Source: an uncultured Bacilli bacterium (GTDB taxonomy: Bacteria; Bacillota_I; Bacilli_A; RF39; UBA660). Taken from it: a stretch of 43,386 nt of DNA. The position numbers were made by a program, and so were the translations under genes. The notes under the pieces are model-generated. The model had not been told where the DNA came from, ran no database searches, and saw only the letters and a list, made by a program, of their open reading frames with translations. The stretch's first letter is position 1; every line of letters starts with the position of its first letter. The stretch covers positions 1 through 43,386 of the forward strand of contig CANRFG010000008.1 of assembly GCA_947629815.1 (NCBI GenBank), written 5' to 3'. This document shows positions 19,155 through 37,801 of the stretch, piece after piece.

Positions 19155-19219
19155 TAAACTTGATTTTTAAAATATATAATGATACTATGTACTTAGATAT
19201 TTATATGGGGGAGAATATA

Positions 19220-20428
19220 ATGAATAATTTAGATTTTAGAATTACAAAAATAGTAAAATACAATGTTATGACTAGTTTTCACGAAGGTTTGGCGCTAGTA
19301 CAAAATAGTGAAGGTTTAAGGGTATTTATAAATAAAGAAGGAAAAGAAGTAATTAGATGTCAATATATAGATGCATCAAACTTTCATGAAGGCTTAGCAC
19401 TAGTACAAAACAATGAATATTTATATGATAATATAAATAAAGTAAGAGTATATGGTTATATAGATAAAGAGGGAAAAGAAGTAATTAAATGCCAATATAT
19501 ATCTGCATCAGATTTTCATGAAGGATTAGCGTTAGTACGAAATAAACAAGGTTTATATGGATACATAAATAAAGAAGGAAAAGAAGTAATTCAATGCCAG
19601 TATAAAGAAGCATCAGATTTTCACGAAGGTTTAGCGCTAGTACGAAATATTGAAGGTTTATATGGATACATAAATAAAGAAGGAAAAGAAGTAATTCAAT
19701 GCCAATATAAAGAAGCATTAGATTTTCACGAAGGTTTAGCGCTAGTACTAAATGATGAATATTCATATGGTTATATAAATAAAGAAGGAAAAGAGGTAAT
19801 TTCATGTAAATATAGATTTGCATCAAATTTTCACGAAGGTTTAGCGATGGTAGAAAATATATATGGTTCATGGGGTTACATAAATAAGGAAGGAAAAGAA
19901 GTAATTCCATGTCAATATAAACGGGTTGAAGATTTTCATGAAGGATTAGCGAGAGTACAAAATAGTGAAGGTTTATGGGGATATATAAATAAAGAAGGAA
20001 AAGAAGTAATTCCATACCAATATACAGATGCATCAGACTTTCATGAAGGATTAGCTCGAGTACAAAATAGAGAAGGTTTATGGGGATATATAGATAAAGA
20101 AGGTAAAGAAGTAATTCCATGTCAATATAAATTTGCTATTGATTTTCATGAGGGTTTAGCTTTAGTAAGAAATGTGTTAGATGAATTATTTTTTATAGAC
20201 AAAAATAATAAGATATTATCTAATAAGCAATATAAATTGGAAATGTGTTATGATAATAACAAGTTTGGCCCAACTATTATAGCAGATACAGAAGAAGAAT
20301 TAGAAATAAAAAAAGTAGAATTTTTCAAATCCTTTAGAGATTTATTAATCGAATCGAATGAAGAAGTAATGGAACAAAAAAATAGTACAAAAACAAAAGT
20401 TAAAGTTTATAGGAAAAAAAGACAATAG
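19220..20428 (+). CDS. WG (beta-strand) repeat protein with nine repeats
   Basis: A 402-aa protein built almost wholly from nine tandem units of about 41 residues with the core FHEGLALVQN...GYINKEGKEVI.CQY (FHEGLA starts recur from near residue 19 to 320). This is the WG/KWG repeat family, expected to form a beta-rich rod or propeller-like scaffold; its function is unknown. Units 3-4 and 7-8 are nearly identical in DNA as well, so the array has been expanded by recent duplication. The end (about 75 residues) is non-repetitive, acidic, then basic (KVKVYRKKRQ). No signal peptide. GGGGGAG at 19207-19213 sets ATG 19220. Confidence 0.9.
   Translation: MNNLDFRITKIVKYNVMTSFHEGLALVQNSEGLRVFINKEGKEVIRCQYIDASNFHEGLALVQNNEYLYDNINKVRVYGYIDKEGKEVIKCQYISASDFHEGLALVRNKQGLYGYINKEGKEVIQCQYKEASDFHEGLALVRNIEGLYGYINKEGKEVIQCQYKEALDFHEGLALVLNDEYSYGYINKEGKEVISCKYRFASNFHEGLAMVENIYGSWGYINKEGKEVIPCQYKRVEDFHEGLARVQNSEGLWGYINKEGKEVIPYQYTDASDFHEGLARVQNREGLWGYIDKEGKEVIPCQYKFAIDFHEGLALVRNVLDELFFIDKNNKILSNKQYKLEMCYDNNKFGPTIIADTEEELEIKKVEFFKSFRDLLIESNEEVMEQKNSTKTKVKVYRKKRQ
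19265..20180 (+). repeat. tandem ~123-bp repeat array inside the WG gene
   Basis: Nine copies of a unit of about 123 bp carrying TTTCA(C/T)GAAGG and ATAAATAAAGAAGGAAAAG. The period is a multiple of three, so copy number can change without a frameshift. A long open frame on the other strand (19485-20120) is a by-product of this periodicity. Confidence 0.85.
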
Positions 20429-20440
20429 TTCTTTTTTTTT
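20413..20440 (+). terminator. weak terminator after the WG gene
   Basis: An A-rich arm with GA pairs to TTCTTTTTT across a 6-nt loop, then a T-run. Weak because the stem is nearly all A-T. Confidence 0.4.
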
Positions 20441-20518
20441 GTAATTGTATAAATTATGTAAACTAAATGCATACTAAAATAATAACTTAATATATATTAG
20501 AAAATACAAATTTCAATA

Positions 20519-20527
20519 TGCTATAAT
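20519..20527 (+). promoter_or_regulatory. extended -10 promoter of the ABC transporter
   Basis: TGCTATAAT, full extended -10 match. It leaves a leader of about 75 nt. Confidence 0.55.
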
Positions 20528-20608
20528 TAATATATTAGAAAGTATTCTACCTTTAGTTCATGTTAAAAATAATAATCTTATTTTAGGATTAATATGATAG
20601 GAGGAATT

Positions 20609-23080
20609 ATGATAGAAATTAAGAATCTAACAAAAATTTATAAGTCGAAAAAAGGTTTAAAAACTACTGCTATTAACAACATTAATTTAAAAATTGCTAA
20701 TAAAGGTATGTTGTTTATTACAGGTAAAAGTGGAAGTGGAAAATCGACATTACTTAATTTATTAGGAGGACTTGATGATATAACAGAAGGTCAAATTTTA
20801 ATAAATGGTCATGATATAAGTAAATTTACAAAAGATGAATATGATTCATATAGAAATACATATATAGGATTTATTTTTCAAGAATTTAATATATTAGAAC
20901 AATACAATGTTTATGAAAATATAGAATTATCTAAAAAACTTCAGAATCAAAATATAAAAAAAGAAGATATAGACAAATTATTAGATAGACTTGGATTAAA
21001 TAATTTAGGCAGTAGAAAGATAAGTGAACTATCAGGTGGTCAAAAACAGAGAATTGCTATCGCAAGAGCTTTAATTAAAGACCCATTTATAATACTTGCA
21101 GATGAACCAACGGGCAATTTAGATAGAAAATCAAGTGAACAAATATTTAATATATTAAAAGAGATAAGTAAAGAAAAATTAGTAATAGTTGTTTCCCATG
21201 ATTTACAATCTGCTTTAAAATATGGAGATAGAATTATTGAAATAGAAGATGGAAATATAATAAATGATTCTTTACCGACTGATAAAATAGAAACAAATCC
21301 ATTTGTTTTAAAAAAATCAAAATTACCTTTACAATATGCTTTAAAAATGGCATTTTCAAGTTTTAAAAATAAACCATTTAAATTATGTATGACTATACTT
21401 TTAACAACGATTTCACTCATATTTATGGGATTTACATTCAATTGTATGATTTTTGATAAAACTATGTTAATTGTAAATACAATGAAAGAAAATAATGATT
21501 ATGTTTACAATGTTGAAAAAGCTATTTCTTCATATAGTGGAATGTATGAACCTTTAAATTTAGAAGAAGATGATATAGATTACATTAAAAATAAAATAAA
21601 TGATAAATTTAGTTTATCATATAATTTGTATGATAATTCACAATTATTAAATTTTGAATTTGGAGAAAATAATTTAGATATTCCTTTTTATACAAATTAT
21701 TTTTCTCCTAAATTTGTGGAGTTAAATGATTCAAGAATACTAAATAAAATAATTGGAAGTGAACCTAAAGAAAATAATGAAATTGTTGTTCATAAATATT
21801 TTGCGGATTATATAATTAAATTCGGTATAAAAACATCAAATGATGAACTATACTTTCCAAAAGATTATGACGATATAATAAATTCAAAAAAACAAATTAA
21901 ATTAGGTCAGAATAAAGTTATAATTACAGGTATAATAGATGACAATAATACTATGTTTGAAGATATTAAAAATGAAACCATAGTAGATGATGAAGAATTA
22001 ATGTTATATCTTCAAAAATATAAAAATAAAGCAAATGATTTTTATGTTAAAGGATTTACAAATTCAGCTATTTTAGGTGCATCAAAGGAAAAATGTTTGG
22101 ATTTTATGTATATTAAAAAGAAAAATTTAATTGAAGATGGAATCGAAAGTGGTAATATTAAAACATTAAATAATGAAATTGATGCAATAACTAAAGATGG
22201 AATTAAAAGTATTAATTCATTAGAAAAAAATGAAATAATTATTTCAATTGATAAGTTACAATCATTTAATAAAACAATGGAAAACGAAATTAATGAATAT
22301 TTTAAAGAAAACAGAAATTTAACTTATAATGATGCATTAGCAAAATATATTGAGCAATATTTAAAAAATAATGATATTACTTTATATTTAAACTATTATG
22401 GTATGTATAATATGGAAGAAGATATACAAGTTAAAGTAATTGGAGTAAGTTTAGATGATATTAGCTATGTTAGTGAAAAATATTTAGAAGAAATAGAGCC
22501 AATTACAAAATTAATATCCTCAGTTAAAATTTTTGATAATAATACAAATAATTTGACTAATTCATTTAAAAATTTAGTATTTAAGCCAATAAATAATTTA
22601 GATGGAACTTACTATAATTATAGTATAAATGCAGGAGTAGATAGTGATATTTCAAATGTAATATCTACCTATAAAGCATTAAATATTTATATTTTAATAA
22701 TTAGTTTAGTATTTATATTATTTACTTTCTTATTATTTTCTAATTTTATATATTTATCAATATCATATTGCAAAAAAGAAATAGGTATACTTAGAGCATT
22801 GGGTGCGAGAAATAAAGATGTAATAAAAATATTTGGTTATGAATCTTTAACTATTGGAATTTTATCTTGGATAATATCAATAATAGGTTGGGTTATTGTA
22901 TGTTCAGTTTTAAATAAATCATTATTTGGAAAACTATATTACACATTAAATGGTATAGTAACTCATCCTTTAGTTCCTATTTTGATGTTTATTTATGTAA
23001 TCGTTATTGTTATAATAATAACAGCTGTATCTATTAGTAGAATTAATAAAATTAAACCAATTGATGCAATAAAAAATTAA
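20609..23080 (+). CDS. ABC transporter, fused ATPase and FtsX/MacB-type permease
   Basis: A single 823-aa polypeptide with both halves. ATPase part (residues 1-230): Walker A GKSGSGKST, Q-loop FQEFN, signature LSGGQKQR, Walker B ILADEPTGNLD, H-loop VSHD. A transmembrane helix follows at about residues 257-280, then a large outside domain of about 370 residues, and three C-terminal helices with the FtsX-type KKEIGILRALGARNKDVIKIFGYES segment and the RINKIKPIDAIKN ending. This type-VII (mechanotransmission) architecture is used by MacB/BceB-like exporters of peptides or lipoproteins; the large domain differs from BceB in size and is not identified. AGGAGG precedes ATG 20609 by 5 bases. No two-component system adjoins. 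Confidence 0.9.
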   Translation: MIEIKNLTKIYKSKKGLKTTAINNINLKIANKGMLFITGKSGSGKSTLLNLLGGLDDITEGQILINGHDISKFTKDEYDSYRNTYIGFIFQEFNILEQYNVYENIELSKKLQNQNIKKEDIDKLLDRLGLNNLGSRKISELSGGQKQRIAIARALIKDPFIILADEPTGNLDRKSSEQIFNILKEISKEKLVIVVSHDLQSALKYGDRIIEIEDGNIINDSLPTDKIETNPFVLKKSKLPLQYALKMAFSSFKNKPFKLCMTILLTTISLIFMGFTFNCMIFDKTMLIVNTMKENNDYVYNVEKAISSYSGMYEPLNLEEDDIDYIKNKINDKFSLSYNLYDNSQLLNFEFGENNLDIPFYTNYFSPKFVELNDSRILNKIIGSEPKENNEIVVHKYFADYIIKFGIKTSNDELYFPKDYDDIINSKKQIKLGQNKVIITGIIDDNNTMFEDIKNETIVDDEELMLYLQKYKNKANDFYVKGFTNSAILGASKEKCLDFMYIKKKNLIEDGIESGNIKTLNNEIDAITKDGIKSINSLEKNEIIISIDKLQSFNKTMENEINEYFKENRNLTYNDALAKYIEQYLKNNDITLYLNYYGMYNMEEDIQVKVIGVSLDDISYVSEKYLEEIEPITKLISSVKIFDNNTNNLTNSFKNLVFKPINNLDGTYYNYSINAGVDSDISNVISTYKALNIYILIISLVFILFTFLLFSNFIYLSISYCKKEIGILRALGARNKDVIKIFGYESLTIGILSWIISIIGWVIVCSVLNKSLFGKLYYTLNGIVTHPLVPILMFIYVIVIVIIITAVSISRINKIKPIDAIKN

Positions 23081-23100
23081 GTAGGATAGAGGTGTGTTTT

Positions 23101-23361
23101 ATGAGAAGTGCAAAAGATAATGATTTTCCTTATCGAATGAGTACAGTTTGTTATTTTGAAGTTTATAATGATGGTAAAGTAAATCAAGTGAGACATAAAA
23201 ATAAATGTGACCTTGATGGTGTATTAGAAGCTTTAAAAAGAGCTGAATCAGGTATTACAACTTTATATGCAGTATGGCCAGGTAATTGGAGTAGCGATTT
23301 ATTCATAATAGATGACTTAGATGAATTTGCAAATAGCTTTGGATTACTTACAACAGTTTAA
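23101..23361 (+). CDS. unknown small protein
   Basis: An 86-aa soluble protein that I do not recognise. The composition is ordinary: a beta-like start (YRMSTVCYFEVYNDGKVNQVRHKNKCD), a helix GVLEALKRAESG, then TTLYAVWPGNWSSDLFIIDD and an acidic helix. The gene starts 20 bp after the ABC transporter stop, with AGAGGTG at 23087-23093, so it is probably the second gene of that operon. There is no signal peptide. Confidence 0.75.
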   Translation: MRSAKDNDFPYRMSTVCYFEVYNDGKVNQVRHKNKCDLDGVLEALKRAESGITTLYAVWPGNWSSDLFIIDDLDEFANSFGLLTTV

Positions 23362-30007: not shown

Positions 30008-30081
30008 AATAGTATATTATTTTATAAACGATAGTAGTTTATGGTATAAATAAAATCCCTTATATTTGATACAAGGAATTT

Positions 30082-31263
30082 TTATTTTTTTATTAAAGTT
30101 ATTTTTTTTGCTTCTTCATATTCATATTCATATGTTTTTGGTATTAAATCTAATATTTTTTTAATTTCATCATCAAAAATCATTTTTATAATTTCATAAT
30201 CTTCATCTTCACAAATAAATATTTGTTTAAAATATTTTTCAAGTTCATTTAATGATTCTTTAATTTGTTGATTATTTTTGTAATAAACAAATTTATCATA
30301 TAATTTACAATATATAGCTATGCTGTTTTTTGGGTTTAATTTATTTATTTTATTTAATATTTTATTAATATTTTCTTCATTTATTTTCATTTGTTTAAGT
30401 ATATGGATACATAAAGCTTGTTCTTCTAAAGATAATGGTCTAATAACTTTATCATTATCTAAATCATAATAAGGTTTTAAAATTCTATTTAAATAATTAA
30501 ATTCTTTTTCAGATATTTGAGGAACATTTATAGAATTTTCTTTTCTCAATTTAATAGTAAATTTCTTTTCTCTTTTTTTTATTTTAAATATTAGGTTATA
30601 AAAATATCCTTCTATTTCTTTTAATAAATCTTCATCAATATTAAATTGTTTAAAAACTTCAATAATATTTTTTATGTCATCTTCATTTAAATTAGGTAAT
30701 TTATCAAAGTAATGTTCTTTTATTGTTTTAAGTTTTTCAACTGTTTTTGAAATATCTAGTTCATTTTCTTGCATAGCTTTTTCGATTTCTTCAAGTTTTA
30801 ATTCATCTAATTTTGTTAATTTTTCTTTTAAAAATAGTTTACGATAACCACCAGAATATATTAAGTTTATTACTTCTTCATAGTTTGTATATTTAAATGG
30901 ATATTCTTTTAATTTTTCAGCATCAAATCCTCTTTGTTTACAATCGATATCTAATATTTTTGTAGCTAAATTTTTTTCAAACATATACATAATAACTTCG
31001 AGTTTTTCTTTTGTTTTAAGTTTAGATTCTTGTAATGCAATAGAAAGCTGTTCAAAACTAGTAAATAAATCAACAAGAGTAGGCCAATCCTCTTTTGGAA
31101 TGCTTAATATTCTTTTTATATTTTCTCTTTCTATTATTTTTTTATAGGTTTCATTATCTGCTTTTATTAGTATACTTTCTTTATTTTCAAAAAGTTTAGG
31201 GTAACATATATTTTCAATATTTTCATCTAAGAAAATTAAAAATTTTTTAATAGTATTACTCAT
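30082..31263 (-). CDS. unknown helical protein
   Basis: A 393-aa soluble protein rich in Lys, Glu, Ile and Leu, with predicted long helices throughout and no signal peptide. I recognise no family. Recurring helical phrases are LDELKLEEIEKAMQENELDISKTVEKLKTI, NLNEDDIKNIIEVFKQFNIDEDLLKEI and MKINEENINKILNKINKLNPKN, which look like a degenerate repeat scaffold. Oddly, it has the only fully consensus promoter in the window (TTGACA-N17-TATAAT) but no clear ribosome site in a leader of roughly 18 nt. It lies head-on to nothing: the next gene in its direction is collagen gene 1. Confidence 0.75.
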   Translation of the reverse strand: MSNTIKKFLIFLDENIENICYPKLFENKESILIKADNETYKKIIERENIKRILSIPKEDWPTLVDLFTSFEQLSIALQESKLKTKEKLEVIMYMFEKNLATKILDIDCKQRGFDAEKLKEYPFKYTNYEEVINLIYSGGYRKLFLKEKLTKLDELKLEEIEKAMQENELDISKTVEKLKTIKEHYFDKLPNLNEDDIKNIIEVFKQFNIDEDLLKEIEGYFYNLIFKIKKREKKFTIKLRKENSINVPQISEKEFNYLNRILKPYYDLDNDKVIRPLSLEEQALCIHILKQMKINEENINKILNKINKLNPKNSIAIYCKLYDKFVYYKNNQQIKESLNELEKYFKQIFICEDEDYEIIKMIFDDEIKKILDLIPKTYEYEYEEAKKITLIKK

Positions 31264-31286
31264 AGTATCATTGCTTTATGCTCGAT

Positions 31287-31315
31287 ATTATAGTTTACAA
31301 TCTATGTTTTGTCAA
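31287..31315 (-). promoter_or_regulatory. consensus promoter of the unknown helical protein
   Basis: Minus strand TTGACA (31310-31315), exactly 17 bp, TATAAT (31287-31292): a perfect sigma-A consensus. Confidence 0.85.
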
Positions 31316-31331
31316 TAAAAAGATATTGTAA

Positions 31332-31384
31332 AAATTGAATAAGATTTACATTTGAAATAGTCTAATAAATGTAAATGTTTATTA
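31332..31384 (+). repeat. 53-bp direct repeat, copy 1
   Basis: Identical over 53 bp to 37699-37751, same orientation. It contains a perfect 10-bp inverted repeat ATTTACATTT (31344-31353)-N13-AAATGTAAAT (31367-31376). The flanks on both sides differ between the copies. Confidence 0.95.
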
Positions 31385-31417
31385 GTATAGAAGAAAAAAT
31401 AAAATATATGAAGTAAC

Positions 31418-31452
31418 TAAAAAAAGTATGAAATTAGTACCATACTATTTTT
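31418..31452 (-). terminator. terminator of the double-HTH gene
   Basis: Stem AGTATG/CATACT with 10-nt loop, extended by A and T runs, giving the minus strand a tail of seven T. Confidence 0.65.
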
Positions 31453-31879
31453 TCCTTCCACATAGCCAATCCATTGATAAATTGAATTTTTTACATAAAT
31501 CATAGGCAAATGCAGTTAATATCAATGTTCTTCCAACTTCATAAGCCCATATTACTGATTGAGTGGTATTTAAAATTTTTGCAAGTTCACGTTGAGTTAA
31601 GTGATTCTTCTCTCTGATATATTTAATATTTTGACCTATTAATTTTTTATCTAATTCATGAAAGCTAGTCTCAGAATACCTATTATCATCGATTTTTAAT
31701 ATATAATCCATAGAAACTTTAAAATAATTTGCATAAGAATTTAATTTTGCTAAAGGTATTATTTCTTTACCTTTTTCCCAATTATATATAGAGTACTTCT
31801 TTGTACCTACAATTTTTCCAATTTCCTCTTGTGTTAAATCAAATTCTTCGCGTAAAAAATATAACCTTTCTAAGTTCAT
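31445..31879 (-). CDS. tandem XRE-type regulator (two HTH domains)
   Basis: A 144-aa protein made of two XRE/Cro helix-turn-helix domains: residues 1-62 (LREEFDLTQEEIGKIVGTKKYSIYNWEKG...MDYILKI) and residues 80-142 (IREKNHLTQRELAKILNTTQSVIWAYEVG...MDWLCGR). The double arrangement suggests that one chain spans two half-sites. It is divergent from the metallopeptidase operon, with overlapping palindromes at 31890-31909 in between, so it is probably the repressor of that unit and of itself. Ribosome site GGTGAT is before the ATG. Located at one end of the segment bounded by the 53-bp repeats. Confidence 0.88.
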   Translation of the reverse strand: MNLERLYFLREEFDLTQEEIGKIVGTKKYSIYNWEKGKEIIPLAKLNSYANYFKVSMDYILKIDDNRYSETSFHELDKKLIGQNIKYIREKNHLTQRELAKILNTTQSVIWAYEVGRTLILTAFAYDLCKKFNLSMDWLCGRKK

Positions 31880-31889
31880 ACTTTATCAC

Positions 31890-31909
31890 CAAAACTAATT
31901 TTGACAAAA
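31890..31909 (+). promoter_or_regulatory. putative operator of the tandem XRE regulator
   Basis: Two overlapping palindromes, CAAAA-CTAA-TTTTG (31890-31903) and TTTTG-A-CAAAA (31899-31909), share an arm. This gives three equally spaced half-sites in the divergent region. Confidence 0.5.
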
Positions 31910-31953
31910 TTTATTAAAATATTATAAAAAGTAGAGAAATAACGGTCAAGATA

Positions 31954-31962
31954 TGTTATAAT
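31954..31962 (+). promoter_or_regulatory. extended -10 promoter of the metallopeptidase operon
   Basis: TGTTATAAT, a perfect extended -10; the ribosome site GGTGAT and ATG 31991 follow. Confidence 0.6.
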
Positions 31963-31990
31963 AAGTATGAGAATAATATATGGTGATTTT

Positions 31991-33157
31991 ATGAAATGCT
32001 TAAATAAAGATTGTAACGCAGGCGAAATAGAGGAAGATGACAATTTTTGTTATAAATGTGGGCATTGGACAGCAAGAGGGTATTCATTTTTAAAACAGCC
32101 TGAAAATATACAAGGCATACTAAATGGTAATGGCGCGAAAAGGGATGATAGATTTTTAACGATGATATCATTAACTTTGTTTGCATTTATAGCTTTTACT
32201 TTTATTGGATTATATAGAGGTGAAGATTTATTTAAACCTTTATATTTTGTTAAAAGAAAAATTGATAACTATGTCTATGGATATAATACTGCAATTATTA
32301 AAACTGATAATATTTATAATAAAAAAAATATAAATAGTTTAGAAGAAGCAAACCAAATTATAGATTATGATTTAGATAGTCAAAATTTTAAATGTTCTTA
32401 TGCACTTGATACTTTTAAACTTGAGACAGACATAGAAAAAGCTTATTCTATACCAAGTGTTAGTTTTTGTGATATGAGTTATAATGAAGCTGAAAAAATA
32501 AAAAATGTAATTGATAAAATGTATTCTTTATTTCCAAATATGAAAGGTGCTTTAACAAATATATCAATTACAAATGCAAAAACAAAGTCAGAATATATAG
32601 CTTATTTTCAACCAATGTTTCAATTTGTAAATCCAAATGAAGATATTAATTTTTACAATAAGGTAAATAAAACACAAATATTATTAAATAGTTATTACTT
32701 TTTAAATGAAAATGTTATGAGTAACCCAATAGAAAGTGTTGTTGGTGAAAATTGGTATGTAAAAGACGCAACTTGGGAATCAACTATTTCACATGAATTA
32801 GGGCATTATATAACATTTGTAATATTTTTAAGGGAAAATGGACTTGAAAATATTACATTTGTGACAAAAGATAATGAAAATAAAATATATGAATTATTAA
32901 AAATATATGAGTCTGGGGAATTTTCTACAAATATAGTTAATCAAGCATTAAATAATTATAACAATAAATATAAAACAAATTTAGATCTTGATTCTTTTGC
33001 ATTGACAATATCTAAATATGCAGGTGTTAAAAATAATGATAATGTTTTAATTGCTGATGAAACTATTGCAGAAGCTATACATGATTTTTATTTACATGGC
33101 GAAAATCTATCTAAAAGTAGTTATGAAATAATTAGTATAATTAAATCAAAATTGTAG
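31991..33157 (+). CDS. zinc-ribbon, membrane-anchored HELGH metallopeptidase-like protein
   Basis: A 388-aa protein. Residues 3-25 hold a zinc ribbon (CLNKDC...CYKC). One transmembrane helix lies at about residues 58-76. The C-terminal 310 residues contain the zinc-protease motif ISHELGHYITFV (HExxH, near residues 268-279) and, about 95 residues later, ADETIAEAIHDFY, where Glu would be the third ligand of a gluzincin. If the ribbon is inside, the protease part is outside; charges on both flanks are positive, so topology is not certain. An XRE regulator next to an HExxH protease recalls ImmR/ImmA, but ImmA is soluble. The stop is 8 bp from the next ATG. Substrate unknown. Confidence 0.82.
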   Translation: MKCLNKDCNAGEIEEDDNFCYKCGHWTARGYSFLKQPENIQGILNGNGAKRDDRFLTMISLTLFAFIAFTFIGLYRGEDLFKPLYFVKRKIDNYVYGYNTAIIKTDNIYNKKNINSLEEANQIIDYDLDSQNFKCSYALDTFKLETDIEKAYSIPSVSFCDMSYNEAEKIKNVIDKMYSLFPNMKGALTNISITNAKTKSEYIAYFQPMFQFVNPNEDINFYNKVNKTQILLNSYYFLNENVMSNPIESVVGENWYVKDATWESTISHELGHYITFVIFLRENGLENITFVTKDNENKIYELLKIYESGEFSTNIVNQALNNYNNKYKTNLDLDSFALTISKYAGVKNNDNVLIADETIAEAIHDFYLHGENLSKSSYEIISIIKSKL

Positions 33158-33165
33158 GTGATTAA

Positions 33166-33345
33166 ATGAGAACTTGTTATAATTGCAAAGGTATAAATAG
33201 GGAAAATGACACATTTTGTAGAAATTGTGGGTTATTAATGAGAAGCAATACTTATTATATTCTTATAAATGTTGGTACAGTTATTATATTGCTTGCTTTA
33301 GTATTTGTAATTATTTTATTTGTTGCGTCTTATTATGTTTATTAA
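33166..33345 (+). CDS. 59-residue zinc-ribbon membrane peptide
   Basis: A small gene that is easy to miss: MRTCYNCKGINRENDTFCRN then CGLL, a four-Cys ribbon (CYNC and CRNC), then one hydrophobic helix (residues 31-57: YILINVGTVIILLALVFVII and on) to the end. AGGTGAT at 33156-33162 overlaps the stop of the metallopeptidase gene, so it is coupled to it. Its ribbon-plus-helix layout copies the N-terminus of that protein, which suggests that the two may interact or that it regulates the larger one. Confidence 0.78.
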   Translation: MRTCYNCKGINRENDTFCRNCGLLMRSNTYYILINVGTVIILLALVFVIILFVASYYVY

Positions 33346-33365
33346 CAATATAGGAAGGTAAAATT

Positions 33366-35990
33366 ATGAGAGATGAAAAGAAATTAAATGTTTATAATGA
33401 AACAGTGGAAGAACTTTATAATAGATTGGAGACAAACGAAAAAGGATTAACTGATGAAGAAGCAGAAAAAAGATTATTAAGAGATGGAGAAAATAAATTA
33501 ACAGAAAAAAAGAAAAAATCTAATTTTGCATTATTTTTTGGACAATTTAATGACTTTATGATTATTTTATTAATATTTGCATCAATATTTTCAGCAGTTA
33601 TTTCTTATGTTCGTAATGAATCTTATATTGATTCAATTATAATAATAGTAATTGTTGTTATAAATGCAATATTAAGTTTTATCCAAGAAAAAAAGGCAGA
33701 TGTTGCTATACAAGAATTAAATAAAATGTTTGTTACTAATAACTATGTTATAAGAAATGGTATTAAAAAATCTATTGATGTTCGTAATATTGTTGTTGGT
33801 GATATTTTAGAGTTAGAAGCAGGTGATTATGTTTCAGCAGATGCAAGAATAATCATGTCAGAAAGTTTAGAAGTGAATGAATCTACATTAACTGGTGAAT
33901 CAAAATCCATAAAAAAAGATAATTCAAATATTAATGAAGAAAAAGAATTATATGAAAGAAAGAATATGGTATTTGCTGGTTGTAATGTTACTAATGGACA
34001 TGCTTTTGTGGTTGTATCATCTACTGGAATGAAAACAGAATTGGGTAAAATAGCTACAAGTTTAATTGATAAAAAAAGTGATATAACTCCACTTCAAAAG
34101 AAAGTAAATCAAATTAGCAAAGTATTAACTTATATAATATTGGGAATTATAGTTGTCATGTTAATAATAGGTTTACTTATGAAAAATGATTTTTTTGATA
34201 TTCTTATGTTATCTATATCACTTGCAGTTGCGGCAATTCCAGAAGGAATGTCATCTATAATTACAATTATTTTGTCGTTAGGTATGACTGCTATGGCAAA
34301 AAAGAATGTCATTATTAGAAAAATGTCATCAGTTGAAACATTAGGCTCAACAGATATTATTTGTTCTGATAAAACTGGTACTATAACACAGAATAAAATG
34401 CTAGTAAAATCAATATATGTGAATGAACAATTATACACTGATAATGATAATATTACTAATCTAGGATTGCTTGTATGTTGTGCTAGCAATTGCCAAAATG
34501 TTACTAAAAATAATGATATTTATATAGGTGATGAAACAGAAGTATCAATATACAAATATTTGGAAAAGATTAATAAGAATGTAGTTAATACTAATCAAAG
34601 AATTAAAGAATATCCATTTGATTCAGATCGTAAAATGATGAGTACTATAAATCAAATTCAAGATAAGATTTATTCATTTACAAAAGGAAGTTTAGATTCC
34701 ATTATTAATAATTGTTCTTCATATATAGTAAATGGGAAAATATTTATGATGACCCCAGAGTATAGACAGAAAATATTTGAAATTGAAAAAGAACAATCAG
34801 CTAAATCTTTAAGGCTTTTAGCATTCGCTTATAAATATGAAAATATTGATGATCCAGAACATAATATGATTTTCATAGGATTAATTGGAATGATGGACCC
34901 ACCTAGAGAAAGTGTACCAAATGCTATTGAAATTTGTCATAAAGCAGGATTAAAACCTATTATGATAACAGGTGATAGTATTAATACAGCCACTGCAATT
35001 GCTAAATCGGTAAATATTATTGATAGCGATGATAAAGCGATAGAAGGAAAAATTGTTGATAAAATGACAGATGATGAACTTGTGGAGGCAGTAAAATATT
35101 ACCAAGTTTATGCAAGAATTAGTCCAAATACAAAGCTTCGTATTGTTGAAGCATTACAACAACAAGGATATGTAGTTGCAATGACTGGAGATGGAGTAAA
35201 TGATGCACCAGCAATAAAAAAAGCAGATATAGGTATTGGTATGGGAATAACTGGTACAGAAGTTGTTAAAAAAGTTGCGGATTGTATTTTAGTAGATGAT
35301 AGTTTCTCAACAATAGTTGATGGTGTTGAAGAGGGAAGAAGAATAACTGCTAATATAAAGAAAATTATTCTTTACTTACTTGCTGGAAATATAGTCGAAG
35401 TAATTTTGGTATTTGTATCAATGTTATTAAATATGGAAATGTTTACTACATTACAACTTTTATGGCTAAATTTGGTTACTGATTCTATTCCAGCAATAAT
35501 GTTAGCATTTGAAAAATCAGATGATGACATAATGGAAGATATACCTTGTAATAGATCAAATTCAAGTTTCTTTACTCCATTTTTAAACGCGAAAATTATT
35601 ATCAGCGCTATATTTAAATCGATAATAATGATAATGTTATTCTTATATTATGCTAATAATTATGATGCTAGTTTTGCTGGGTCATTAATGTTTATTTATT
35701 TGATAGCGAATGAATTGCTATATTCACTATCTTGTAGGAATTTGAAAAAGTCTGTATTTAATAAAAGATTTTTTGAAAATAAGAGATTGATAATAAGTTT
35801 AGTAGTACTTGCAATAATACAGATATTAGTGTTAACAACAGGATTATCCAAGTTCTTTATTGTAGGGGGATTAAGAATAGAAGATGTATTAATTACATTG
35901 GGTATATGTTTTGTAACTTTTGTTTTAGGTGAATTAATTAAGCCATTATATGTAAGATTATTTAAAGATTATATGGAGGTGAAAAGATGA
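33366..35990 (+). CDS. Ca2+-type P-type ATPase (P2A)
   Basis: An 874-aa cation pump. N-terminal cation-ATPase domain (VEELYNRLETNEKGLTDEEAEKRL); actuator LTGES; TM4 AAIPEGMSSIITI, the PEG turn of Ca2+ pumps; phosphorylation CSDKTGTIT; nucleotide domain FTKGSLD; hinge MTGDGVNDAPAI; TM6 LLWLNLVTDSIPA with the Asn and Asp Ca2+ ligands; C-terminal cation domain. It lacks heavy-metal CPx motifs. Ca2+ is the best call, Mn2+ possible. It sits inside a unit with a metallopeptidase and unknown proteins, an uncommon setting, and its 3' end overlaps the next gene by 4 bp. AGGAAGG is ahead of the ATG. Confidence 0.92.
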   Translation: MRDEKKLNVYNETVEELYNRLETNEKGLTDEEAEKRLLRDGENKLTEKKKKSNFALFFGQFNDFMIILLIFASIFSAVISYVRNESYIDSIIIIVIVVINAILSFIQEKKADVAIQELNKMFVTNNYVIRNGIKKSIDVRNIVVGDILELEAGDYVSADARIIMSESLEVNESTLTGESKSIKKDNSNINEEKELYERKNMVFAGCNVTNGHAFVVVSSTGMKTELGKIATSLIDKKSDITPLQKKVNQISKVLTYIILGIIVVMLIIGLLMKNDFFDILMLSISLAVAAIPEGMSSIITIILSLGMTAMAKKNVIIRKMSSVETLGSTDIICSDKTGTITQNKMLVKSIYVNEQLYTDNDNITNLGLLVCCASNCQNVTKNNDIYIGDETEVSIYKYLEKINKNVVNTNQRIKEYPFDSDRKMMSTINQIQDKIYSFTKGSLDSIINNCSSYIVNGKIFMMTPEYRQKIFEIEKEQSAKSLRLLAFAYKYENIDDPEHNMIFIGLIGMMDPPRESVPNAIEICHKAGLKPIMITGDSINTATAIAKSVNIIDSDDKAIEGKIVDKMTDDELVEAVKYYQVYARISPNTKLRIVEALQQQGYVVAMTGDGVNDAPAIKKADIGIGMGITGTEVVKKVADCILVDDSFSTIVDGVEEGRRITANIKKIILYLLAGNIVEVILVFVSMLLNMEMFTTLQLLWLNLVTDSIPAIMLAFEKSDDDIMEDIPCNRSNSSFFTPFLNAKIIISAIFKSIIMIMLFLYYANNYDASFAGSLMFIYLIANELLYSLSCRNLKKSVFNKRFFENKRLIISLVVLAIIQILVLTTGLSKFFIVGGLRIEDVLITLGICFVTFVLGELIKPLYVRLFKDYMEVKR

Positions 35991-36388
35991 AAAAAAATAA
36001 TCAAAATAATAATCAAACTTCATTTATAGTATTTTCAGGGATAGTTGTATTATGTATATTTACAGCAGTAACAATTATTAATATTCTTCCTAGAAATAAT
36101 GAGAGTGATTCATACTATGTAAAAGTAGAAGAAGATATGAGCGCTAAAATTGAATCATTAGATATAGAAAACAATAAATTAAAAATCACTATGTCTGGTG
36201 ATACTATTGAGTATTGTGTTAAATCAACAAAAAGTACACCAAATGATAATGCTTTGTGTTGGAAGAAAGTTGATAATAATACAGCAATTATCTCTATTTA
36301 TCAAAACAAAAAATATTATGTATGGATTAAAGATGTAAATGGAAATATTAGTATTCCTATGAGCATTAATACAAAAGATAATGGCTAG
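35987..36388 (+). CDS. small anchored extracytoplasmic protein
   Basis: A 133-aa protein: short polar N-terminus (KKNNQNNNQ), one hydrophobic helix (residues 12-34), then a domain of about 95 residues of beta-like texture ending KKYYVWIKDVNGNISIP, similar in feel to Ig-like/YYVWVKD modules of Firmicute surface proteins. Two Cys (EYCVKS, ALCWKK) could pair. Start overlaps the P-ATPase stop (ATGA), so it may be an accessory of the pump. AGGTGAAAAG before the ATG. Confidence 0.78.
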   Translation: MKKNNQNNNQTSFIVFSGIVVLCIFTAVTIINILPRNNESDSYYVKVEEDMSAKIESLDIENNKLKITMSGDTIEYCVKSTKSTPNDNALCWKKVDNNTAIISIYQNKKYYVWIKDVNGNISIPMSINTKDNG

Positions 36389-36405
36389 TAAGGAGAAATC
36401 TATTT

Positions 36406-37473
36406 ATGAATAGTGAGCGTATTAATGATTCAAGAAATAGAGTTTTCATAAATAATTTAGCAATAGGTAAAGATATACCTATTGCTATGTCAACTTCTTC
36501 TACTTCCAATTATAGAGTGACTGGATTAAATCAAATTGAAGATATAATAAACTGTGGATATGTTCGACCAAAAGCTGGTAAACTAATGGGTGGACACACA
36601 AACGAAATATTTTGGACTAGAGGTGGTGAAAATACTTTCTATTATGATAAAAGACCTGTATTAGAAGTATCAGAAGATAAATTAAAAGATGGACAAATGG
36701 GTGCGATTTCAATAAAAGATTTATTAGGAATATGGGTCTTTGATGAAAGTCAAAATAAATATATAAATCAAATAAATTATTTTAAAAATTTATACGAACA
36801 ACGACATTCAAATAATACTGATGCTATTCCACTTGAAAATATTTATTCTGTTCTTAATGAAAATGGGTATATTTGTTTAGGACATGGAATAGGAAGAACA
36901 GGAAATATGAATGATACCATACAATCAATATTTCAGAATGGATTAAGAACAAAAGATAATTCTTTATACTATACAACTATTGGATTAGATACTACTAATA
37001 TAGAAGCATTACGTCAAAAATTAAATGAATGGCAACACCAAGATTCAAAAAAAATAATTTTGATACGACTACCATTAGAATATATTAATAGGTTAGGTGA
37101 TAGTGCTGATTTAGATGGTGAAAAATTTGGCGCTTTCTATAATGAAGTAATTTCATCAAATGGTAAAATAACATATTATTTAGACCCTAAATTCATTGTA
37201 GGTTGTTATGATGTTGAAAAACAAGTAGTTCTCTTAAATAATAATTTTGAAAGAATATTAAGTGAAAAAACATTACGCACTTTAAGAGAAAAATATAAAA
37301 CGACATTGGCAAAAACACAAGCTAGATTTGAAAGGTTAGAAGAAACATTAAATAGTCTAAATGCTAATCATAATCAAAATACACAAGATGAAATCCAAAA
37401 TTTAGGAGCAAATTTAGAATGGAATTTAAGTGATTTTGATGATGATATAGATTGGGGGGCAAGAAAAAGATGA
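36406..37473 (+). CDS. unknown protein with possible ADP-ribosyltransferase-like folds
   Basis: A 355-aa soluble protein I cannot name. It has two related-looking halves: (i) LNQIEDIINCGYVRPKAG...GGHTNEIFWTRGGENTFYYDKRPVL, residues 41-88; (ii) ICLGHGIGRTG, IQSIFQNGLRTKDNSLYYTTIGLD, residues 155-196, followed by IILIRLPLEYI and a YYLDPKFIVGCYD end. The second order (HG, then I..I...GLR, then YTT, then hydrophobic strand) resembles ART/RNA 2'-phosphotransferase-type folds. That is a pattern reading, not proof. The last 60 residues are a charged coiled coil and acidic tail. AAGGAG is before the ATG; the end overlaps the next gene by 4 bp. Confidence 0.75.
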   Translation: MNSERINDSRNRVFINNLAIGKDIPIAMSTSSTSNYRVTGLNQIEDIINCGYVRPKAGKLMGGHTNEIFWTRGGENTFYYDKRPVLEVSEDKLKDGQMGAISIKDLLGIWVFDESQNKYINQINYFKNLYEQRHSNNTDAIPLENIYSVLNENGYICLGHGIGRTGNMNDTIQSIFQNGLRTKDNSLYYTTIGLDTTNIEALRQKLNEWQHQDSKKIILIRLPLEYINRLGDSADLDGEKFGAFYNEVISSNGKITYYLDPKFIVGCYDVEKQVVLLNNNFERILSEKTLRTLREKYKTTLAKTQARFERLEETLNSLNANHNQNTQDEIQNLGANLEWNLSDFDDDIDWGARKR

Positions 37474-37649
37474 AAAGCCAAAAAAAAGATAATTACATAA
37501 AAGATTATATTGATAGAAAAAAACTTATAAAGAAAGCAAATAAAATTCAAAAACAAATGAAGAAACAAGAAAAAGTAATAAATGTAATATTACAGAAACT
37601 TGATGAAATGGAAGCACCAAAAGGAAAAGAAATAATAATTAAAAAATAA
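37470..37649 (+). CDS. 59-residue basic coiled-coil peptide
   Basis: A short Lys-rich peptide (MKSQKKDNYIKDYIDRKKLI then KKANKIQKQMKKQEKVI, VILQKLDEMEAPKGKEII) predicted to be one long amphipathic helix or coiled coil. ATG 37470 overlaps the preceding stop (ATGA) and has a GGGGGG tract at 37456-37461 as a possible ribosome site. The upstream gene ends in its own coiled coil, so the two may pair. Last gene of the unit. Confidence 0.7.
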   Translation: MKSQKKDNYIKDYIDRKKLIKKANKIQKQMKKQEKVINVILQKLDEMEAPKGKEIIIKK

Positions 37650-37678
37650 CCTAATCTTCGCAAAAGGTTATTTTTTTA
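37645..37678 (+). terminator. terminator of the metallopeptidase-pump operon
   Basis: A 7-bp stem AATAACC/GGTTATT with 14-nt loop and T-run. It closes the unit 20 bp before the second 53-bp repeat. Confidence 0.75.
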
Positions 37679-37698
37679 TATATAAAATTATGTTTTAG

Positions 37699-37751
37699 AA
37701 ATTGAATAAGATTTACATTTGAAATAGTCTAATAAATGTAAATGTTTATTA
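37699..37751 (+). repeat. 53-bp direct repeat, copy 2
   Basis: Identical to 31332-31384. It ends 50 bp before the ATG of collagen-like gene 2 and contains the same 10-bp inverted repeat (37711-37720 and 37734-37743). Confidence 0.95.
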
Positions 37752-37776
37752 AAATGTGTTCACAATATATAAGTAT

Positions 37777-37785
37777 CATAATATA
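37777..37785 (+). promoter_or_regulatory. possible sporulation-type -10 of collagen gene 2
   Basis: CATAATATA fits CATAnnnTA and lies 25 nt before the ATG, matching collagen gene 1. No good -35 for a sporulation sigma is seen. Confidence 0.35.
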
Positions 37786-37801
37786 TTATAGGGGGAAAAT
37801 T

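Follow-up and report, generated by a model that had tools for sequence, protein, structure and literature searches.

The window, i.e., the whole stretch of DNA analysed (43,386 nt), contains between positions 31332 and 37751 a regulator gene and a divergently oriented operon, enclosed by two copies of a 53-bp sequence in the same orientation, the left repeat at 31332-31384 and the right repeat at 37699-37751. The preliminary description of this DNA had called the copies identical, which we confirm: the match is exact and ends at 53 bp. The regulator gene (31445-31879, minus strand) specifies an XRE-type protein of 144 amino acids with two HTH domains (Pfam HTH_19, 7.8e-25; HTH_3, 1.6e-21), which has an 88% identical copy in genome G159 (locus L106) and a 50% identical relative at locus L132. 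The divergent promoter region between the regulator gene and gene A (31880-31990) includes TTGACC-17-TATAAT on the minus strand; it is conserved with locus L069, inside a block of 87.5% DNA identity (see below).

The operon is encoded on the plus strand. Gene A (31991-33157; 388 amino acids) specifies a zinc ribbon, one transmembrane helix and a zincin-type peptidase domain with HELGH and a downstream E; gene B (33166-33345; 59 amino acids) a small zinc-ribbon protein with one transmembrane helix; and gene C (33366-35990; 874 amino acids) a type II (Ca2+-type) P-ATPase with PEGMSS in TM4. The product of gene D (35987-36388; 133 amino acids) is membrane-anchored with a short outer part in which we infer an Ig-like fold, the protein having no family match in Pfam or NCBIfam. 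Gene E (36406-37473) encodes a two-part protein, with halves that we call EN (residues 1-137) and EC (140-355), and gene F (37470-37649) a small, highly charged helical peptide of 59 amino acids, for which a search for relatives returned none. The earlier gene identifications held for the double-HTH XRE protein and the Ca2+-type P-ATPase (Pfam, NCBIfam), for the zinc ribbons of A and B and for the HELGH motif, and did not hold for E, which is taken up below. As had also been claimed, probable terminators close the unit just inside the repeats, each made up of a hairpin and, after it, a T-run on the strand that carries the terminated gene: that of the XRE gene at 31419-31456 (minus strand; hairpin, then T7, read by eye, with a loop of about 10 nt that is longer than our terminator scan permits) and that of the operon at 37641-37676 (plus strand; a perfect 12-nt stem and a T-run). 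No integrase had been noticed within the unit, and indeed there is no recombinase among its genes. Its G+C content, 25.4%, equals that of the genome. PADLOC returned generic HTH matches only for the unit, and a known anti-phage defence system was ruled out on that basis.

When a 43-kb sequence was simulated 30 times with a second-order Markov model, the longest exact repeat measured only 16-20 bp, so that a length of 53 bp is far above chance. Each copy contains an inverted repeat with 13-nt arms (92% match) around a 13-nt spacer, giving the imperfect palindrome AAGATTTACATTT-13 nt-AAATGTAAATGTT, and folds as a single strand into a bulged hairpin, better than shuffled sequences do (z -3.2). 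A sequence search of the assembly (1.14 Mb in 46 contigs, 94% complete) returned these two copies alone; the many scattered copies that the preliminary description had named as a sign against an inserted unit are thus not there, and a multi-copy element was ruled out. Further palindromes of this kind were not found in the assembly, and the palindrome is absent from all other of the 386 family genomes. Rfam had no match to the repeat, by which an RNA family was ruled out. Directly outside both repeats lie putative sigma-70 promoters of perfect or near-perfect consensus, one for the gene of a helical protein (31315-31287, minus strand; 12/12 match) and one for collagen gene 2 (37759-37787, plus strand; 10/12 match), a consensus match not being proof of a promoter. 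This geometry fits the earlier remark that removal of the unit with one repeat would rejoin the promoter region of the helical-protein gene with collagen gene 2.

The corresponding locus was found in G001, a sister genome of the same genus (Ffh 98% identical), which shares 96% DNA identity with the window over most of the common flanks, including the right flank (96%), and 89% over the collagen-1 side. In G001, collagen gene 1 is followed directly by collagen gene 2 at a distance of 0.2 kb and the unit is absent, which bears out the earlier impression that the unit is inserted. Homology ends at window position 30056 (about 30042 by eye) and restarts at 37751; the sequence missing from G001 (30057-37750, about 8 kb) comprises the helical gene, both repeats and the operon, and about 137 bp of G001's own sequence stand in its place. 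An empty site with one 53-bp copy had been predicted and is not what we see: the uninterrupted G001 locus has no single copy of the repeat (attB), nor does it have the helical gene. From G002, also of the same genus, no locus syntenic with the window was recovered. The comparison with G001 proves the gain or loss of the region and, as far as the alignment can tell, sets its right limit at the repeat, the final base of which is the point where homology restarts. On the left, homology with the cassette in G159 reaches window position 31418, 34 bp inside the left repeat. Alignments on both sides therefore support, within their resolution, the coincidence of the unit's outer limits with the repeats.

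The neighbouring block at 30057-31331 (minus strand; 19% G+C), likewise absent from G001, carries the helical protein gene (30082-31263), which is a second accessory gene at the same spot as the unit. Members of the helical protein family occur sporadically (26 of 372 genomes), at times as tandem copies, and are very A+T rich, at 19% G+C.

The nearest relative of the cassette is found in another genus, in G159, where DNA identity is 87.5% from window position 31418 to the end of the G159 contig. The cassette proteins of the two genomes are 86-93% identical, the Ffh proteins only 75%. Across ten genomes, the distances of A correlate with those of C (rho 0.86), as against 0.15 for Ffh with A and 0.17 for Ffh with C. 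Of the 386 family genomes, 35 have gene A, and it is missing from both relatives of the same genus (G001 and G002). Since the distances of A and C agree with each other and disagree with those of Ffh, and the presence of A is patchy, these comparisons argue strongly for joint horizontal travel of A and C. A horizontally transferred islet should be patchily distributed and disagree in its distances with core genes, as is seen here with Ffh; on the sequence evidence, 31332-37751 is a recent horizontal acquisition, an accessory operon with repeat-marked edges. Gene A has no match in viral contigs or plasmids and gene E none in phages or viral contigs; a virus or plasmid as the vehicle was ruled out on these grounds.

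In all, a scan of GTDB genomes yielded 70 relatives of gene A. The same gene order, which the preliminary description had proposed to look for elsewhere, was found at 27 GTDB loci (L106-L132), mostly in assemblies of rabbit and ruminant gut Bacilli, where A-B-C-D holds as far as the contigs reach: some of these loci are truncated by contig ends and several are the same loci as in the whole-genome set. Departures are limited to L131, where B was not recognised, and L127, with a diverged pump. About 25 loci of gut Bacilli share the A-B-C-D order; their last gene is interchangeable and encodes EN alone, EC alone, an EN+EC fusion (in the window, L108, L109 and L110) or unrelated proteins. In the window, L106 and L132, A has an XRE gene beside it; L120 has one there too, but a dissimilar one. 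We found no description of this gene set in the literature. It had been called unfamiliar at first sight, rightly in that it matches no identifiable system, yet it recurs in other genomes as an accessory operon, which the libraries searched do not describe. The cassette-bearing contig of locus L108 (7.4 kb) is filed with an assembly of Methanosphaera, an archaeon, and is most probably bacterial DNA that was binned wrongly.

A second operon recurs at L078-L086, where more distant relatives of A are accompanied by a trypsin-like protease and by other proteins without a name; this suggests that A is the portable element, with the pump as one among its partners. EN or EC also occurs behind P-ATPases without A (L031, L033, L039/L040 and L046/L047). 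L031 and L125 have similar-looking right flanks, one locus carrying A-B-C-D-EC and the other C-D-EC only, a contrast that suggests the loss of A and B.

Comparable flanking repeats were found at none of the other cassettes. A unit always present without flanking repeats had been named beforehand as an observation that would count against the insertion reading, and the other cassettes come near to it. The sole long repeat pair found beside another cassette, of 35 bp in L120, was discarded as a second repeat-flanked example: its stem is followed by a T-run on the minus strand and the pair was judged a terminator. Searching the loci for the palindrome arms gave six matches in 1.83 Mb, roughly as many as simulated, with one G159 site counted twice. 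As marks of other cassette edges, these matches were rejected as chance-level; the site in G159 alone, a looser palindrome of the TTTACAT/ATGTAAA kind located 74 bp outside the left limit of the cassette, was kept as a weak lead.

In gene A, residues C3, C8, C20, C23, H268 and E361 are invariant in 20 sequences and E269 and H272 nearly so; four invariant cysteines at the N-terminus are followed by a long helix across the membrane. The AlphaFold model of the protein has a pLDDT of 89. An HExxH motif and a third ligand conserved in the relatives mark A, judging by its residues, as a putative zincin metallopeptidase, in which E361 is the probable third ligand. Its peptidase domain would lie outside the cell and its zinc ribbon in the cytosol. 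No family match was obtained with the Pfam peptidases or NCBIfam; the best matches in the fold library were lethal-factor chains, not significant (E 0.23, TM 0.30), and a comparison with the M34 lethal-factor/PPEP family gave no significant match in sequence or fold.

In the pump encoded by gene C, the type II domain set is complete (Pfam) and the catalytic motifs are present. By eye, DKTGT, TGES, the TM5 N/E and the TM6 N/T/D are present, and the other ligand positions look intact. Against the curated PMR1, SERCA and PMCA equivalog models, it stays below every cut-off (609.8 bits with the PMR1 model; cut-off 798.3). All 26 cassette-type pumps checked have [GS][ML]SS after PE in TM4, i.e., PEG[ML]SS, or PESMSS in two of them; five non-cassette type II pumps of the same organisms have PEGLP there. 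Compared with SERCA, the cassette motif presumably puts a serine for the proline three residues after the ion-binding glutamate. Gene C is the only PF00689 pump found in the window's assembly, and the sister genome has two elsewhere; at 94% completeness, the single pump of the window's assembly is suggestive only. Where the window carries a repeat-rich gene and an ABC/FtsX permease gene (19160-23361), the sister has a different Ca2+-type pump (L197:4757-7357), 49% identical to gene C and with PEGLP.

The two halves of gene E look unrelated, each with its own invariant residues, and are separate genes in relatives; roughly one in two EN/EC genes follows a P-ATPase gene. The AlphaFold model (pLDDT 81) has IcmQ as its best fold match, not significant (E 0.14), and neither half was convincingly matched in Pfam or among PDB sequences. 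That E might be ART-like, as had been suggested, is unproven: the likeness to an ADP-ribosyltransferase is a motif-level impression, and all sequence and fold searches were without a significant match. At L041:8721-17660 (minus strand), an EN-type domain (about residues 1330-1459) occurs in a protein of 2979 amino acids with a C-terminal bacterial EndoU nuclease domain; at L035:7488-9596, a 702-residue protein combines a second zincin-like motif (IIHEYAH, by eye) with an EC domain. EN and EC proteins alike (L029-L048, L073, L076) often have short basic tails such as GKSK, GRSR, KHR or ARKR, found in 14 of 22 E-type proteins as compared to 81 of all 506 proteins of more than 100 amino acids in the same loci; these tails could be a sorting signal or could reflect composition and shared ancestry.

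We consider it moderately probable that the unit is a transferred islet without a recombinase of its own, moved by site-specific recombination in trans at the 53-bp repeats and carrying an XRE-controlled A-B-C-D cargo. Its point of entry would have been the stretch that separates the promoter of the helical-protein gene from the divergent one of collagen gene 2, and the palindromic repeats would be the junctions left by the recombinase. A recombinase acting in trans is the simplest reading because the unit is delimited by exact palindromic repeats; an element of this type would have identical direct repeats at its ends, as is seen here. XerC and XerD are encoded in the genome along with several other tyrosine recombinases. 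Arms of Xer sites lie 6-8 nt apart; those of the repeat are separated by 13 nt, unlike the usual Xer layout, and are candidate recombinase-binding arms. Repeat-mediated mobility may thus be proposed, and counting against it are the lack of a recombinase in the unit and of a clean attB, the absence of the repeat from the other family genomes, the repeat-free cassettes elsewhere, the genome-like G+C content and the missing matches of A to viral contigs and plasmids and of E to phages and viral contigs.

As for the cargo, the XRE protein may repress the operon until a signal comes. The pump, of a distinct clade of Ca2+-type P-ATPases, would expel a divalent cation; A would act as an outward-facing, membrane-anchored metallopeptidase and D as its outward-facing partner, with the zinc-ribbon tails of both A and B, in the cytosol, as possible assembly or metal-sensing elements and the product of gene E as an exchangeable cytosolic accessory. 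The benefit would likely be surface proteolysis coupled to cation export.

Some of the same observations would suit a unit that came by ordinary homologous or illegitimate recombination, with repeats that move nothing and came about incidentally, for instance through duplication of a regulatory palindrome between genes. Cassettes elsewhere do without repeats, no empty site with one copy was found, the palindrome has no other copy in the 386 genomes and its place between two promoters is one where a shared operator might be expected. We give this account an appreciable but minor chance, as the repeats are exact and stand at the unit limits on both sides, and G159 has the looser palindrome 74 bp outside its left limit, though such sites occur at about chance frequency overall. 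That the helical gene is sporadic too, that both blocks are missing in G001 with homology restarting exactly at the end of the right repeat, and that the repeat folds as a bulged single-strand hairpin could further be explained by sequential addition at one point, first of the helical gene with a repeat and then of the operon with a repeat, hairpin-ended like integron cassettes. This is unlikely: of the two things expected of integron cassettes, an integron integrase was not found in the genome and attC-type sites in numbers were found neither in the assembly nor in the 386 genomes, XerC, XerD and the others score well below the integron cut-offs, the genome has no other such palindrome, and a divergent multi-gene cargo would be atypical.

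An ancestral operon, deleted between the collagen genes in the sister species, is very improbable. The absence of about 8 kb from one genome is formally symmetrical with loss, but gene A is also missing from the second same-genus genome (G002), identity to another genus is high when set against the housekeeping distance, and the A and C distances are incongruent with Ffh.

The favoured reading, an islet moved in trans, concerns a multi-gene module that an uncultured lineage of the gut has cleanly gained and for which there are the uninterrupted locus of the sister genome, a relative in another genus and two exact repeats. In the recurrent operon, a Ca2+-type pump of a new clade is coupled to a membrane peptidase whose family has no name in the libraries searched, and identification of the pump's ion or the peptidase's substrate would give a function to genes that many gut bacteria of rabbits and ruminants have passed among themselves. 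More speculatively, and rather doubtful at present, A-B-C-D could be an undescribed mobile membrane machine of gut Bacilli, in which a pump of a new clade, its ion-binding loop altered (PEG[ML]SS), would work with the outward-facing metallopeptidase on its zinc-ribbon anchor, and which would deliver or regulate exchangeable, enzyme-like last-gene products such as E.

Parts of the unit recall known systems. Standalone toxin cassettes have been described (PMC3482391); like the modules of polymorphic toxins and polyvalent proteins, the parts of E are shuffled between proteins, once beside EndoU, but E has no immunity gene and no demonstrated toxin activity or secretion signal. Gene A shares HExxH and a distant glutamate helix with the zincins of the lethal-factor/PPEP type (MEROPS M34 group) and differs from them in its N-terminal zinc ribbon and membrane anchor, with no sequence family match. 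The PMR1/SERCA-type Ca2+ P-ATPases (TIGR01522, TIGR01116) have the full domain set, DKTGT, TGES and TM5/TM6 ligands in common with gene C, which in contrast scores below the PMR1 cut-off, has PEG[ML]SS or PESMSS for PEGLP and is linked to A, B and D. The unit as a whole is set apart from the Xer-exploiting IMEX by a repeat unique to this genome and by the lack of an attB in the genomes compared; it resembles these IMEX-like elements in its terminal direct repeats with an inner palindrome, in being without an internal recombinase and in its patchy, cross-genus distribution.
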